In this document: positions 49,054-64,000 of the stretch, piece by piece
Layout: every line of letters begins with the position of its first letter
Numbering within the stretch: position 1 is the first letter of the stretch
Assembly (NCBI RefSeq): GCF_022347785.1
Contig: NZ_JAKRGA010000002.1
Span: 806,001-870,000, forward strand
Direction: 5' to 3'
From: Psychrobium sp. MM17-31
Lineage (GTDB): Bacteria; Pseudomonadota; Gammaproteobacteria; Enterobacterales; Psychrobiaceae
Length of the DNA stretch: 64,000 nt
Made by a program: the position numbers and the translations under genes
The notes under the pieces: model-generated
The model's database searches: none
What the model was told of the DNA's origin: nothing
What the model saw: only the letters and a program-made list of their open reading frames with translations

Positions 49054-49128
49054 TTGTAAGAATAATATGATCTTTCATTAAACAGCATTCGTATTCATGA
49101 CTTAACCACCTTAAATAAGGAGAGCGTT

Positions 49129-52100: not shown

Positions 52101-52166
52101 AATAAATCTCTTTGATTAGGGATAGATTTACATACGCAGTCCCAAACAGTACCGATCATCCAAAAA

Positions 52167-58911: not shown

Positions 58912-59469
58912 ATGAAAAAATCGAAGAAAAAGACCAAGGCTCAACCTGAAGAACAAGTTCAAGCACAACCAGCTCGCGAGAATCATGCCGACTTTCTACG
59001 TGCTAGTTTTACCCGTCGTTTAGGCGCGCTCATGTACGACTCGTTAGTAGCCATGGCGGTGTATGCGGTAGCCCATTTTATTGGTTTTATTGTTGTTGCC
59101 CTATTAGCGCAGGTAAATCCGAGTTTCTGTAGCGACAATACTGATATTCAACGCTGTGTTATCACCAGTGATGTGTACTCGGGTTACTTAATCTTTGCTG
59201 TGTGTTTCTTCTTTATTTGGTTTTGGACGCACGGCGGTCAAACCCTTGGCATGCGTGCGTGGCGCTTAAAGGTTCAACGTATGAACGGCGCTTCAATTAC
59301 CACCTTGCAAGCGGTTATTCGCTTGTGTACTGGTTTTTTCGGTTTAGGCAACATCTGGTTATTATCAAAAAATAGCGAAGGCATGAGCTTGCAAGATCGC
59401 ATGTCAGGCTCTGAAATTGTAGTGCTTAGTCCTGAGGCTAATAAGATTAAGAACTGGCGTCAGCTATAA
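58912..59469 (+). CDS. RDD family membrane protein
   Basis: 185 aa. Lysine-rich cytoplasmic start, then the RDD domain with TRRLGALMYDSLV (the R and D residues of the family name), about three TM segments and GQTLGMRAWRLKV. RDD proteins are implicated in Na+/H+ or other small-solute transport; unproven here. It is divergent from the GYF-like gene and ends at a terminator. Confidence 0.87.
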   Translation: MKKSKKKTKAQPEEQVQAQPARENHADFLRASFTRRLGALMYDSLVAMAVYAVAHFIGFIVVALLAQVNPSFCSDNTDIQRCVITSDVYSGYLIFAVCFFFIWFWTHGGQTLGMRAWRLKVQRMNGASITTLQAVIRLCTGFFGLGNIWLLSKNSEGMSLQDRMSGSEIVVLSPEANKIKNWRQL

Positions 59470-59487: not shown

Positions 59488-59515
59488 AAAGGCGACTTAT
59501 GAGTCGCCTTTCTTT
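59488..59515 (+). terminator. Terminator after RDD gene, overlapping the DUF3833 3' end
   Basis: AAAGGCGACT-TATG-AGTCGCCTTT followed by CTTTTC. The stem includes the last codons and stop of the convergent DUF3833 gene. Confidence 0.75.
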
Positions 59516-60036
59516 TCTATAAACAACACGATTTCTCCCACTTTAAAACCAAACTTCAAGATATCGGTTTTATTAAATAAGCGTTTGTCATCGAGTAAAT
59601 ACATCCAATCATCCAGCGTCACTTGATAGTCGGTGCCATCAACGTTTATTGTCATGTCATACTGCCAATAAAGCGCTGATCCTGATGTTTCGCCAGTAGC
59701 AATACCAATCACGTCCCCTGCTTCACCTTGATATTGATTCGGTGCGGTTTTAGTCAGACGCCAAACGCGTGTTGATTGCTCGCCGTCGTCAAAATAAAAT
59801 ACTTCATCGATAACACCTTTGTCAGCCTCCCAAGACGCTACTAAATCAGCTCTAAAACGGCGCGTCAGTTTACCACCGCGATCGAGCACCATGCCGTAGG
59901 CGGTCAGCTCACCATTGAAGAATTCTTCTAAATTTAATTGCGGCGTGGTTTGCTGATAATCCGATAACGAAGGACTTGAACAACCAATAATACTCCATGC
60001 GATAACAGTGGCTAAAAAATTACGCATTAACTTCAT
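59497..60036 (-). CDS. DUF3833 family lipoprotein
   Basis: 179 aa. Lipobox WSIIGC (C19). The core NLEEFFNGELTAYGMVLDRGG and RRFRADLVASWEAD, WQYDMTINVDG, DDWMYLLDDK matches DUF3833. Last gene of the CFA-like operon; its ATG overlaps the previous stop (ATGA). Function unknown; outer-membrane lipid-modification context. Confidence 0.85.
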   Translation of the reverse strand: MKLMRNFLATVIAWSIIGCSSPSLSDYQQTTPQLNLEEFFNGELTAYGMVLDRGGKLTRRFRADLVASWEADKGVIDEVFYFDDGEQSTRVWRLTKTAPNQYQGEAGDVIGIATGETSGSALYWQYDMTINVDGTDYQVTLDDWMYLLDDKRLFNKTDILKFGFKVGEIVLFIEKKGDS

Positions 60037-60596
60037 GAGGATGCTCCTAACAATTTGCGACGAAATTTAGGCCGCGAGGTGTTTTCTGATAACCAAATGG
60101 CCAGAAATGCCGGGCCAAATTCCGGATTAGTAATCTCGCCGATTGGCTTTATCTCACCGCCTTTAGGCTTAAAATAAAACTGAGAACGACGCTGTTTATC
60201 GACGTATAGCACTATGCTGTCACCATCGGTAACATTTGGAAAAATCGGTTGTAACAAGGTTATCCAAGGCGCGCGTTGCGCCTTATCAATCTTAAGGTGC
60301 TGCCATTGCTCGTCTGTTGCAGTAACGAGATCTTCACCGTCGATATCGCGCAAGTAAGTTATTTTGAGGGCTTGTGGGTAAACGTTTTGCTGATAGCCAT
60401 CGTTTACCGTGAAAAACTCAGCGCTATACACCTTCCAAAACATGACTTTCATGGTGCCTTGGCCAAGCTTGGTCAATTGCTGCAATTTCTGTTCAATGCT
60501 TATTTTGGATGTCGACGATGAATCTTTTTCCAGTGATTGATTTGCTATTACAATTGATGAGAACAAGAAGCTCACAACCAATAAAAGACTACGCAT
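60033..60596 (-). CDS. Chalcone isomerase-like periplasmic protein
   Basis: 187 aa. Signal peptide to VIANQ (about residue 19), then a chalcone-isomerase-like domain: GQGTMKVMFWKVYSAEFF, ALKITYLRDIDGEDLV, GPAFLAIWLSENT. Bacterial members bind fatty acids or lack known activity. It overlaps the DUF2878 gene by 8 bp. Confidence 0.85.
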   Translation of the reverse strand: MRSLLLVVSFLFSSIVIANQSLEKDSSSTSKISIEQKLQQLTKLGQGTMKVMFWKVYSAEFFTVNDGYQQNVYPQALKITYLRDIDGEDLVTATDEQWQHLKIDKAQRAPWITLLQPIFPNVTDGDSIVLYVDKQRRSQFYFKPKGGEIKPIGEITNPEFGPAFLAIWLSENTSRPKFRRKLLGASS

Positions 60597-61104
60597 AACC
60601 TTGTTTCTCCTTACGATGAGTATCTATAAGTCGTTGGCGAAGCACACACAGCGCTGGCAACAAACCGCACCAAATAATAGCTTCGATCATTGTAAAAACA
60701 GTTAGCGTTAATGGGGTTGAAATAGCACCTAATTCTATCGCCGCCAAATAACTAGTCGCTCCCAACACGCCGCCCAAGATGGCCACTTGCCACAGCTTGA
60801 TATTACTAAGCCAAGACAGGCTATGGTTTAAGCTCCACGTAAGAATGATCCACAGTAAAACAAGCCATATGGGAATCATCGACTGCTTAACGTCAATCAC
60901 GCCAAAACTAATCAGCAACTGATCTACTACAATGCCGATTAGCGCTAATGGCAAAAGCTTCAAGTCATCTAATTTAGTGGGAGACAGCGCAAGGTGGAGA
61001 ATGAGCGTAGCACTCATAATGAGTACTGCACGTTGGCTAAATAGCGCGGCGCTCCACCAGCAAAGCTGAAATAATGCGGCGTTAATAATCCAAAACAGTC
61101 GCAT
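60589..61104 (-). CDS. DUF2878 membrane protein
   Basis: 171 aa from ATG 61104; the longer frame to 61326 lies inside the cfa-like gene. About five TM segments. MRLFWIINAALFQLCWWSA and the DQLLISFGVID region match DUF2878. It overlaps the end of the CFA-like gene by 23 bp. Function unknown. Confidence 0.82.
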   Translation of the reverse strand: MRLFWIINAALFQLCWWSAALFSQRAVLIMSATLILHLALSPTKLDDLKLLPLALIGIVVDQLLISFGVIDVKQSMIPIWLVLLWIILTWSLNHSLSWLSNIKLWQVAILGGVLGATSYLAAIELGAISTPLTLTVFTMIEAIIWCGLLPALCVLRQRLIDTHRKEKQGYA

Positions 61105-62347
61105 CGTGGTTGTCTTTGTATTGCGGCTTGCGAGCAACGATATGATGGGTGCTAATGACGCGCTCGATAAAGGCGCCTTCGCAATAACACAGGTAGTAAT
61201 GCCACAGGCGCTTAAAGGTATCGTCGTAACCGAACTCAGTAATATCAGCCCAGTTTTCATCGAATTTGTGACGCCAATCGAACAAGGTTCTGGCGTAGTG
61301 CAAACCAATATCTTGCACGTTATCAATCATCATATCTGTCGTGTCTGCAATATGCTGACTCATTACCGCCATCGACGGTAGACAGCCACCAGGGAAGATG
61401 TACTTATTGATAAAGTCCACTGATTTACGGTAAGTATCATAACGTTGATCGGCAATGGTTATCGCTTGGAGCAGCATCTTACCGTCCGGTTTTAATAAGC
61501 TAGAACACTTATTGAAAAACTGTCCTAAGAACTCATGACCAACGGCTTCAATCATTTCAATAGACACTAACTTGTCGTACTCGCCTTCAAGCTCGCGATA
61601 ATCTTTTTTGAGTAAAGTGATTTGTTTGCTAAGTCCTTGCGCTGCAATTTTCTCACGAGCATAGGCGTGTTGAGCGTCAGAAATAGTAGTTGTTGTTACC
61701 TTACAACCGTAATTTTGTGCCGCGTAAATAGCTAAACCGCCCCAACCTGTGCCAATTTCAACTAGGTGATCACTTGGCTTGAGATCGAGTTTATCGCAAA
61801 TGAGTTTTAGCTTGGCTTGTTGTGCCTCTGACAACGAGATATCACCATCATAATAAGCACAGGAATACATCATCTTTTCATCGAGAAAACGAGTGTAGAG
61901 TTCGTTACCTAAATCGTAGTGCGCCAAAATATTACGCTTAGAGCCTTCTTGAGTATTGCGATTGCTAAAGCTCAACAACTTCTTCTGTAGCTTATTGAGA
62001 ATGCTACTATTTCTTTCTAACTCATCCACTAATTTTTGGCTGCGAGCGAATACTTGAATAAGTTTGGTTAAATCAGGACTATCCCATTTCTTATCGATGT
62101 AAGCTTGCGCAGCTCCTAAGCTACCGCCCGTCACAAAATCGCTGTAAACGCTACTATCGTTGATACGCAACTCACCAGCTAACTCACTTTCAATATTGCC
62201 AAGTTCAACACGCTGACTACCTTCAACAACAGTGATTTTGGCATCGGTAAGTTGTGCTAATAAATCAAAAATACCTTGGCGATATTTGTTGTCTAACCAG
62301 CTCAATTTGTCGCTTGGTGCTTTACCTGCTGTTTGCGTTTGTTGCAT
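61082..62347 (-). CDS. cfa: Cyclopropane-fatty-acyl-phospholipid synthase-family methyltransferase
   Basis: 421 aa. N-terminal lipid-binding region (1-120), then SAM motif LVEIGTGWGGLAIYAA, SIEMIEAVGHEFL, YIFPGGCLPS and FDWRHKF, all CFA landmarks. It methylates unsaturated acyl chains of phospholipids. In this operon (with DUF1365 and a FAD oxidoreductase) it may instead make a methylated intermediate of furan fatty acids, as known for Rhodobacter relatives; inference. It overlaps DUF2878 and lies 18 bp after DUF1365. Confidence 0.87.
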   Translation of the reverse strand: MQQTQTAGKAPSDKLSWLDNKYRQGIFDLLAQLTDAKITVVEGSQRVELGNIESELAGELRINDSSVYSDFVTGGSLGAAQAYIDKKWDSPDLTKLIQVFARSQKLVDELERNSSILNKLQKKLLSFSNRNTQEGSKRNILAHYDLGNELYTRFLDEKMMYSCAYYDGDISLSEAQQAKLKLICDKLDLKPSDHLVEIGTGWGGLAIYAAQNYGCKVTTTTISDAQHAYAREKIAAQGLSKQITLLKKDYRELEGEYDKLVSIEMIEAVGHEFLGQFFNKCSSLLKPDGKMLLQAITIADQRYDTYRKSVDFINKYIFPGGCLPSMAVMSQHIADTTDMMIDNVQDIGLHYARTLFDWRHKFDENWADITEFGYDDTFKRLWHYYLCYCEGAFIERVISTHHIVARKPQYKDNHDATVLDY

Positions 62348-62365
62348 GTTGACCTCGTGCTAGTC

Positions 62366-63118
62366 TCATTGCTTAGGGTGGGGAATAAAAGGCACACCAC
62401 CAATAAATATTTTTAAAGCTTGCCAGTAAATTAAGCTCACTATTTTGATAGCGGAAAATGGCAAACTAAACCATGTTTTTATCATCGCCAAGCTACTCAT
62501 AGGCTGCTTAGTTAACGCCATGGTGGCATCGAATACCTTAGCTGCCTGTGGCGATTTATCTAAGTTCTCCAAATGAACAAATAACTTGTCACTCGGTGGC
62601 TTCACTCGCCATTTGTAATACATATCCAGTGGCATAAAAGGCGATACGTGAAAGTCTTTCTGCGTTAACTGTGGCTGTTCAACATCCACCAAATAGTAGT
62701 GTTTTTCATGCCACGGCGTATTGCTCACTTCAGCTAACATCAACGGACAACTGCCATCGTCGTTAAAGCAGAAAAAGAAGTTCACCGGACTAAAATACAT
62801 CCCTAAACTACGACATTGCACCAGCATCATCACTTGATTGCCTTGCCAGTCGCCGCCTAACTTAGCGACTTTCGAAGCAATACGTTGCTTGAGATTGCCC
62901 GGTTCACTTTTTATGTAATCTTTTTCGCAAAAACGCACCGGATTAAACCAACGGGTGCCAAATAAGAAGTGCTTTTTGGTGACTTGTTCTATTGCATCGG
63001 GATTAAGGCCAAACATCGAGAAAGAATAACTAAAGGCGCGAGCAACAGGGCTAAACCTGCGATGGCGCACATTGCCTGTGTAGATACCGCTTTCTTGAAT
63101 AATTGGCCGCTGAATCAT
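62366..63118 (-). CDS. DUF1365 family protein
   Basis: 250 aa. Start ESGIYTGNVRHRRFSPVARAF and YFSPVNFFFCFNDDG, EVSNTPWHEKHYYLVD, FHVSPFMPLDMYYKWRV match DUF1365. Such proteins are constantly paired with a FAD-dependent amine-oxidase-like enzyme and CFA-like methyltransferase. Its ATG overlaps the stop of that upstream gene (TAATG). Confidence 0.9.
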   Translation of the reverse strand: MIQRPIIQESGIYTGNVRHRRFSPVARAFSYSFSMFGLNPDAIEQVTKKHFLFGTRWFNPVRFCEKDYIKSEPGNLKQRIASKVAKLGGDWQGNQVMMLVQCRSLGMYFSPVNFFFCFNDDGSCPLMLAEVSNTPWHEKHYYLVDVEQPQLTQKDFHVSPFMPLDMYYKWRVKPPSDKLFVHLENLDKSPQAAKVFDATMALTKQPMSSLAMIKTWFSLPFSAIKIVSLIYWQALKIFIGGVPFIPHPKQ

Positions 63119-64000
63119 TACAGTGTTATCCCAAAACGTTTGGCAACATCGACAGCACTTTTAACACCGTCTTCGTGGAAGCCGTTATACCAATATGCCC
63201 CGACAAAATGGGTGTTGTTTTGACCGCAAATCAGCGAACGCTGACGCTGCGCCGCCATGCTTTTACTGTTGAACACAGGATGGTGATAAACGTACTGTTC
63301 AATGATCTTTTCAGGATCAATCAATTGAGTCTGATTGAGCGTGACACAAAAGGTCGTTTCACTTTCAATCCCCTGTAGAATATTCATATTGTAGGTGACG
63401 GTTGCAGGCTGAGTTTGCGTACCTGATTCGGCCAGTAAATAGTTCCAGCTTGCCCATGCTAAGCGGCGCTTAGGCAGTAGATTGGTGTCGTGATGTAACA
63501 CAACCTCATTGCGACTATAAGGAATATCCCCTAATACTGCAGTTTCACTTGGTGTTGGGTTGTGAAGCAATGACAATGCTTGATCTGAATGACAAGCAAA
63601 TACCACTTCATCGAATCGCTGCTCACTGCCGTCTTCGAAGACCAAGACAATGCCATCACTATCACGCGACACATGTTTTAGTTGGCTATTGAGAAAAATG
63701 CGCTCACTAAAATTTGCTGTCATCGCAGGAATATAACTACGAGAGCCGCCTTTAATGACATACCATTGTGGCCTGTCAGAGACATTCAATAAGCCGTGGT
63801 TATAGAAAAATTGAATGAAAAATTTAAGCTCAAAATCGCGCATTTCTTTGAGCGATGTTGACCAAATCGCCGCCCCCATTGGCAAAATGTAATGCTGCGC
63901 AAAAAAATCTGAAAACCGATAAGAATCTAGAAAATCACCAAGGGTTAACGTGGTATCGATATTGCCCTCAGAATAGAGCTTTTTACACTGTTTATTAAAG
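63118..64000 (-). CDS. FAD-dependent NAD(P)-binding/amine-oxidase-like oxidoreductase (5' truncated)
   Basis: C-terminal part, at least 293 aa; the frame is open to the window edge, so the FAD-binding N-terminus is outside. Visible text includes WYVIKGGSRSYIPAM, DEVVFACHSDQALSLL, RRLAWASWNYLL and FVGAYWYNGFHEDGVKSAVD, the usual C-terminal FAD site. Members of this group act in lipid desaturation or carotenoid-like oxidations. First visible gene of the lipid operon. Confidence 0.87.
   Translation of the reverse strand, partial: FNKQCKKLYSEGNIDTTLTLGDFLDSYRFSDFFAQHYILPMGAAIWSTSLKEMRDFELKFFIQFFYNHGLLNVSDRPQWYVIKGGSRSYIPAMTANFSERIFLNSQLKHVSRDSDGIVLVFEDGSEQRFDEVVFACHSDQALSLLHNPTPSETAVLGDIPYSRNEVVLHHDTNLLPKRRLAWASWNYLLAESGTQTQPATVTYNMNILQGIESETTFCVTLNQTQLIDPEKIIEQYVYHHPVFNSKSMAAQRQRSLICGQNNTHFVGAYWYNGFHEDGVKSAVDVAKRFGITL

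Follow-up and report, generated by a model that had tools for sequence, protein, structure and literature searches.

Closest described systems and the Psychrobium locus

Rhodobacter and Rhodopseudomonas use the Ufa enzymes to synthesise methylated furan fatty acids. As described by Lemke 2020, UfaM (a protein resembling cyclopropane fatty acid (CFA) synthase), UfaD (a flavin adenine dinucleotide (FAD) protein related to phytoene desaturase), and UfaO (DUF1365) turn a cis-vaccenoyl phospholipid into the monomethyl furan acid 9M5-FuFA, and FufM adds the second methyl; the pathway core is also covered in a review (PMC6852236). In Halomonas the three ufa genes are consecutive, and its ufaM yielded 11-methyloctadec-12-enoate in E. 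coli. Here we analyse a 64,000-nucleotide stretch of DNA (the window; positions 806001-870000 of one contig in the 4.17 Mb genome of Psychrobium sp. MM17-31), at whose edge lies what is highly likely to be a gammaproteobacterial RpoE-ChrR (ECF11 type) operon whose core genes direct synthesis of a methylated furan fatty acid on phospholipids of the membrane.

The core regulon of R. sphaeroides has eight genes (rpoE, chrR, RSP_1087, RSP_1088, RSP_1090, RSP_1091, phr, and cfaS; PMC5507510). Taken together, RSP_1091-1087, rpoE-chrR, and RSP_2144 (ufaM) share UfaD, UfaO, UfaM, the ECF sigma factor, ChrR, photolyase, and an SDR with the Psychrobium locus. The arrangements differ in that ufaM stands at a separate locus in R. 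sphaeroides but within the operon in Psychrobium, and in that the GPH symporter gene RSP_1089 occupies the place of the window's DUF2878; the R. sphaeroides operon table lists no DUF2878 or chalcone-isomerase-like gene. In S. oneidensis, RpoE2 induces SO_3386, and the operon SO_3386-SO_3374 (in which ybgA, phrB, and cfa are named) carries a promoter of the RpoE2 type (PMC4336711). This RpoE2-ChrR regulon shares with the Psychrobium locus ybgA, phrB, and cfa in one operon, the order LON-rpoE2-chrR, and the promoter motif, but in MR-1 it is divided between two loci (SO_3386-SO_3374 and SO_1987-SO_1985), whereas in Psychrobium thirteen genes form one contiguous run. The authors of that study interpret cfa as a cyclopropane synthase, and annotations of furan-pathway genes in gammaproteobacteria still commonly refer to cyclopropane synthesis. 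The Ufa core and a corresponding Shewanella regulon are already known; what is new here are the partner genes and the exchange of DUF2878 for an MFS_2 transporter.

Six minus-strand genes at 59497-64000 encode DUF3833, Chalcone_3, DUF2878, CMAS, DUF1365, and FAD oxidoreductase proteins. Adjacent genes overlap by 1-23 bases, apart from a single gap of 18 bases, and the Pfam assignments of the window genes all exceed curated cut-offs. Three of them match UfaM, UfaO, and UfaD by family and order, so that all three enzymes are encoded: ufaM (61082-62347; PF02353 CMAS, 286.9 bits), a CFA-like methyltransferase using S-adenosylmethionine (SAM) and a predicted cis-vaccenate 11-methylase; ufaO (62366-63118; PF07103, 243.2 bits), a predicted O2-dependent furan-forming enzyme; and ufaD (PF01593, 83 bits for the full gene), a predicted FAD amine-oxidase-like desaturase. 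Position 64000 is the window edge and the operon runs on past it, so ufaD covers 63118-64000 in the window and 63118-64377 when complete. The initial annotation had described the six genes as closely spaced or overlapping, which they are, and had assigned them to a Rhodobacter-type pathway of CFA-like and partner genes under RpoE-ChrR, which agrees with the UfaM, UfaD, and UfaO of Lemke 2020. Its term 'lipid-modification operon' covers only part of the whole, since genes for photolyase and DUF523/DUF1722 also lie inside. Because of these two members, it is a light-stress operon and more than just a lipid operon.

The same annotation expected ECF sigma and ChrR genes just outside the window and proposed looking beyond position 64000. 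We examined 20 kb spanning the edge (locus L002; window position = L002 position + 57999) and found both upstream in the same transcription direction: chrR at 67908-68576 (L002 9909-10577; PF12973) and the ECF sigma gene at 68573-69196 (L002 10574-11197; PF04542 and PF04545), with the sigma gene first and the two overlapping by 4 bases. The ChrR protein passes the TIGR02451 ChrR family model (190.9 bits, cut-off 124.5) and does not reach the stricter equivalog NF051881 (94.2 bits, cut-off 300). We take a small set of ChrR residues to bind zinc or to matter in the cupin. Aligned to the solved R. sphaeroides ChrR (2z2s), the Psychrobium protein retains all of them (HH, HxxxCxxC, the cupin HxHxxxE, and a distal H); the HxxxCxxC motif of ChrR is also given in the literature. 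Judged by family and residues, the locus is an RpoE-ChrR (ECF11) type singlet-oxygen system, for which activation by singlet oxygen is predicted.

The remaining genes, also on the minus strand and given in window-equivalent positions, encode an SDR (64374-65108), a SnoaL/NTF2 protein (65105-65542), photolyase (65552-66943), DUF523/DUF1722 (66947-67894, the start being our choice), and a protein whose only Pfam match is the LON substrate-binding domain (69259-69864; L002:11260-11865). The transcription order is LON, ECF sigma, ChrR, DUF523/DUF1722, photolyase, SnoaL/NTF2, SDR, ufaD, ufaO, ufaM, DUF2878, CHI (the chalcone-isomerase-like gene), and DUF3833. From the sigma gene through DUF3833 the largest intergenic gap is 18 bases. 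The operon ends with DUF3833 (59497); a convergent RDD-family gene (58912-59469) terminates 27 bases away. Gene content, gene order, the identity of the regulators, and the promoter match described below were all observed in Psychrobium itself.

Conservation of the operon and its promoter motif

DUF1365 was found in 32 of 114 genomes of the class and 21 of 39 relatives. Within the genus it occurs in five of nine genomes, the same five that carry DUF2878, and one of the four negatives is 88 per cent complete. We liken this patchiness to the regulon's absence from deep-sea and cold-loving species of Shewanella (PMC4336711). Among the matches listed, the closest came from the metagenome-assembled genome Gammaproteobacteria MedPE-C45, with 89 per cent identity in UfaO. 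For synteny we used eighty-eight loci: the window, seven plasmid or chromid loci, and eighty named loci, the best 80 of the 585 matched by a gammaproteobacterial query, which makes frequencies in this set unrepresentative. They contain UfaD (88), UfaO (88), UfaM (87), SDR (84), NTF2 (82), DUF2878 (74), CHI (73), DUF3833 (69), DUF523/DUF1722 (56), photolyase (56), ChrR (52), ECF (51), LON (39), and MerR (17). The full 13-gene order of the Psychrobium locus recurs in thirteen of the eighty-seven other loci (one of them with two LON matches), from Shewanella, Pseudoalteromonas, Vibrio or Vibrionales, Motilimonas, and the MedPE genome, and the arrangement is therefore ordinary for this group. All thirteen genes stand in this order on pTHAF3_a of Pseudoalteromonas sp. 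THAF3 (NZ_CP045419.1), a record typed as a plasmid in which they are only annotated; we met no mention of this locus in the literature and made no search for one. A MerR-type regulator, possibly the Vibrio PhrR, is present in 17 of the 88 loci, and in five of them (L099, L129, L132, L141, and L145) it lies between DUF523/DUF1722 and photolyase.

Both the eighty-eight loci and a second set of thirty-one from the class were selected through their ufaO. Around this gene, ufaD and ufaM were both present in 87 of 88 loci, the contig ending before ufaM in the remaining one, and in 29 of the 31 class loci, where L054 has no ufaM and L067 no ufaD within the stretch examined. The grouping of ufaD, ufaO, and ufaM is not a matter of chance.

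The sigma gene is preceded by TGATCC-N16-CGTA, which ends 34 positions before the gene start. The motif published for V. cholerae is TGATC-N18-CGTAT; for S. oneidensis it is TGATCC paired with CGTATT or CGTAAT (PMC4336711). We surveyed eighty-four loci of relatives with the pattern TGATC-N16-18-CGTA, using random 360-base pieces from the same loci as a control that itself includes genuine sites. Of 48 ECF genes, 40 had the motif upstream, and of 40 LON genes 24 did, against 167 of 4200 control pieces. NTF2 genes without an annotated same-strand gene within 250 bases had it in 19 of 25 cases (thirteen of the nineteen from Vibrionaceae). It was rare at internal genes: UfaD 0/84, DUF3833 0/65, photolyase 0/57, and DUF2878 1/67. 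Across the window genome a related pattern matched 34 times, compared with 13 for the pattern reversed, and the loci of 30 of the 34 were inspected. Generic sigma-70 promoter and terminator scans gave sites no more frequent than in shuffles. A further possible sigmaE promoter, lying within phrB and ahead of NTF2, was also considered; the pattern occurs there in 44 of 57 loci. This candidate was rejected because the window site (L086) lies in photolyase coding sequence (DPDG.FIR), and codon conservation is the simpler explanation.

Other sigmaE-like sites occur in this genome. Two are within the window, at 49068-49094 (+) upstream of a DUF6482 gene and at 52132-52158 (-) upstream of a small lipoprotein-like gene that matches no Pfam family. 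Intergenic sites elsewhere (L096, L093, and L088) precede an azurin-like copper protein, a pyridoxamine-phosphate-oxidase-like gene, and an epimerase gene divergent from the LON gene, respectively.

Predicted chemistry of the Ufa core and competing readings

If the operon works as its relatives do, singlet oxygen or an organic peroxide would inactivate or remove ChrR, the zinc-cupin anti-sigma factor, and the freed sigma factor would transcribe its own operon from TGATCC-N16-CGTA, from ChrR, DUF523/DUF1722, photolyase, SnoaL, and SDR through ufaD, ufaO, and ufaM to DUF2878, CHI, and DUF3833. UfaM would methylate cis-vaccenoyl chains using SAM, UfaD would desaturate the methylated chain to a methyl-diene, and UfaO would insert an O2-derived oxygen and close the furan ring. 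The whole programme would thus combine a sensor, a sigma cascade, DNA repair, furan armour of the membrane, and an accessory lipid-handling arm. The enzyme chemistry was established in alphaproteobacteria and the sigmaE control in Shewanella and Vibrio, and by analogy both should hold in Psychrobium. The findings support furan acids as part of a light-stress programme in many non-photosynthetic gammaproteobacteria.

A rival reading has the CFA-like protein producing ordinary cyclopropane fatty acids, with the FAD and DUF1365 proteins confined to modifying or regulating this and no furan formed. The window enzyme does belong to the CMAS family, and as the only strong CFA-type match in its genome it is the likeliest source of any cyclopropane acids (288 bits in the genome-wide scan; other CMAS matches scored 30.4, 28.5, and 19.8 against a Pfam cut-off of 27). 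E. coli carrying the Halomonas ufaM also contained cyclic acids. The curated models point the other way, as UfaM falls below the cut-offs of all four listed NCBIfam cyclopropane or mycolic synthase models, including PRK11705 (304 bits, cut-off 400), the CfaB model (241.3, cut-off 650), and the Brucella type (275.1, cut-off 600). So do the residues. We number positions as we take them to be in E. coli Cfa, where C139 and H266 are presumably bicarbonate ligands. Among 116 UfaM-type proteins, the H of EHVG is replaced by A in 113 and the H266 position by Q in 115, and the window UfaM carries this EAVG and Q signature; the residue at C139 varies among S (84), A (17), and C (15). Loss of bicarbonate-ligand residues would fit a methyl-branched product and not a ring. 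Together with the company that ufaM keeps (ufaD and ufaO in 87/88 and 29/31 of the ufaO-selected loci), this makes the cyclopropane reading quite improbable.

Another reading, which is compatible with furan synthesis, holds that the operon serves chiefly to signal, UfaO and the furan chain setting off the turnover of ChrR, with the LON protein as proteolysis adaptor. RSP_1090 (UfaO) is required for ChrR degradation under singlet oxygen in R. sphaeroides (PMC3818230), and the gene for the LON substrate-binding-domain protein, which could be an adaptor for ChrR proteolysis, accompanies the ECF gene in 39 of 51 loci and depends on RpoE2 in S. oneidensis, where it is SO_1987 (PMC4336711). R. sphaeroides, however, uses DegS and RseP homologues (PMC3818230), and a signalling role leaves photolyase and DUF523/DUF1722 unexplained. 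We consider it unlikely as the main purpose of the operon.

A number of observations weigh against a furan-making operon under RpoE-ChrR control. Plant cyclopropane synthases with the same FAD-plus-CFA architecture make cyclopropane acids. The window UfaM retains the cysteine at the C139 position, as do only 15 of the 116 homologues. Compared with named alphaproteobacterial orthologues, the Ufa proteins give profile matches, and the window UfaO is only 28-30 per cent identical to three of them. The motif is weaker at leading YBGA (10/29) and leading SDR (3/7) genes, fails at DUF2878 blocks detached from ufaM (1/6), exceeds the random 4 per cent in regions internal to the operon at CHI (8/63), and is missing upstream of the window genome's LON gene. 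DUF2878 and DUF3833 turn up in five and one, respectively, of the eighty-two class genomes that have no DUF1365. Last, eight of the eighteen riboflavin-lowered genes of Aeromonas salmonicida J223 are NTF2, SDR, FAD, DUF1365, cfa, and DUF2878 plus ChrR and a LON-domain gene (PMC10012899, Table 3); this cluster goes down with riboflavin, not up, the opposite of a photosensitiser effect, and the section concerned does not tie these genes to the sigmaE-ChrR regulon.

For the furan operon itself, the predicted product is the monomethyl furan acid only, because the genome has no other strong CMAS match and a FufM stand-in query (L101:5618-6643) found no second methylase in it, recovering only ufaM (27 per cent identity, 83.2 bits) and one 19-bit match. 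As a separate observation, DUF2878 is accompanied in four loci (L037, L040, L042, and L052) by a DUF1295 gene and a short additional CMAS protein, possibly a FufM-type dimethyl-furan module; the Rhizobium member of this short type is closest to coclaurine N-methyltransferase. The AlphaFold2 model of UfaO provides a confident predicted structure (pLDDT 93.9, pTM 0.91). No Foldseek match reached E 0.001, and the best VIA Z was 6.7 (nitrobindin, root-mean-square deviation (rmsd) 4.0, 129 aligned), in the range that the tool terms a common arrangement. Profiles of UfaO, DUF3833, DUF2878, and CHI searched against the PDB gave no credible relative by sequence, two UfaO hits standing at E 0.18 and 0.93.

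The DUF2878-CHI-DUF3833 block

Downstream of ufaM the window encodes a DUF2878 protein (60589-61104; PF11086, 119.1 bits) with about four hydrophobic membrane segments by hydropathy, a CHI protein (60033-60596; PF16036 Chalcone_3, 41.7 bits, cut-off 27) with a hydrophobic segment at residues 1-19 (signal or anchor), and a DUF3833 lipoprotein (59497-60036; PF12915, 220.8 bits). We set the DUF2878 start at 61104, as 61326 is merely the longest open frame. The lipobox cysteine of DUF3833 is present in 53 of 53 aligned proteins. Its AlphaFold2 model (pLDDT 94.3, pTM 0.85) gave VIA Z 16.2 to BFA1 (rmsd 3.0, 140 aligned), 13.9 to both nitrobindin (2.8, 135) and CpeS (3.7, 144), and 9.6 to FABP7 (3.2, 116). 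DUF3833 is accordingly modelled, with confidence, as a predicted calycin beta-barrel on a lipoprotein. The calycin fold commonly accommodates small hydrophobic ligands.

Of the 74 loci bearing DUF2878, 67 have it immediately after ufaM. In the other seven (L125, L126, L127, L130, L136, L169, and L170) DUF2878, CHI, and DUF3833 stand together upstream of the regulators, with L169 lacking DUF3833, and because of these detached cases the three behave as a unit travelling with the pathway. Among the relatives, DUF2878 is present in 19 of 21 DUF1365-positive genomes and 0 of 18 negative ones (Fisher p 3e-9; none of these Fisher tests takes account of shared ancestry). In the class it occurs in 13 of 32 genomes with DUF1365 and 5 of 82 without (p 3e-5), one of the five falling below the Pfam cut-off, and DUF3833 occurs in 17 of 32 and 1 of 82 (p 1e-10). 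DUF2878, the operon-type CHI subtype, and DUF3833 are thereby singled out as pathway partners. Two further candidates were rejected as specific markers: the Chalcone_3 family as a whole (33/114 genomes; 18/32 with DUF1365, 15/82 without), of which many genomes have a different, higher-scoring subtype, and Cupin_7 (45/114; 22/32 with, 23/82 without).

Leaving the window aside, nine of the 31 loci from the class carry an MFS_2 transporter gene (PF13347) no more than 10 kb from ufaO, with scores of 57.5-275.3 bits, the 57.5-bit match being truncated where the stretch ends. These nine genomes all carry DUF3833 and none has DUF2878, which is present in 13 of the 23 other DUF1365 genomes (p 0.004); MFS_2 was sought within 20-kb stretches and DUF2878 genome-wide. 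DUF2878 and MFS_2 never occur together in the set of 88 loci. The two are mutually exclusive near ufa genes in the genomes sampled. We have not met this exclusion in print, and no search was aimed at it.

The R. sphaeroides operon appears to follow the second arrangement. Its annotation gives RSP_1089 as a GPH symporter, RSP_1088 as hypothetical (186 aa), and RSP_1087 as an SDR, and the best P. syringae match of RSP_1088 is annotated as a lipoprotein (PMC5507510). MFS-DUF3833 neighbours are also present in Azospirillum and Ensifer. RSP_1088 is very probably the DUF3833 gene, and because of the annotations and the lipoprotein match we read RSP_1089-1088-1087 as MFS_2, DUF3833, and SDR. Set against this, PMC3818230 describes conservation of RSP_1089-1087 as restricted to Rhodobacteraceae, a restriction contradicted by the Azospirillum and Ensifer neighbours and by the core regulon of PMC5507510.

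When RSP_1087, RSP_1088, and RSP_1089 were deleted one at a time in a strain already lacking chrR, the fatty acid profile did not detectably change (Lemke 2020), so the SDR, DUF3833, and the transporter would be dispensable for furan acid synthesis. From this we infer that the accessory block may act after synthesis, possibly handling furan chains. Singlet oxygen converts furan acids to diones, chalcone-isomerase-fold proteins that bind fatty acids exist, and MFS_2 includes a lysophospholipid transporter. We tentatively suggest, as a possible if somewhat doubtful extension, a third arm in which a membrane component (DUF2878 or, in other lineages, MFS_2), an exported chalcone-isomerase-fold protein, and the DUF3833 calycin lipoprotein would extract, transport, or clear furan chains, most probably ones that singlet oxygen has oxidised to reactive diones, while SDR and SnoaL detoxify the dione in the cytoplasm. 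The exclusion of DUF2878 and MFS_2 near ufa genes makes the fate of spent furan chains testable, and if such an arm exists, the co-travelling DUF2878, CHI, and DUF3833 may expose an unstudied lipid-handling step.

In the literature that names DUF2878, DUF3833, or their Pfam accessions, the portions available gave no link to furan acids. Deletion of the Vibrio DUF2878 gene VC1123 altered outer-membrane porin expression, which would be compatible with an envelope role for DUF2878 but is no demonstration of one. In Erwinia, one paper noted a CFA-synthase gene adjoining a DUF3833 lipoprotein gene.

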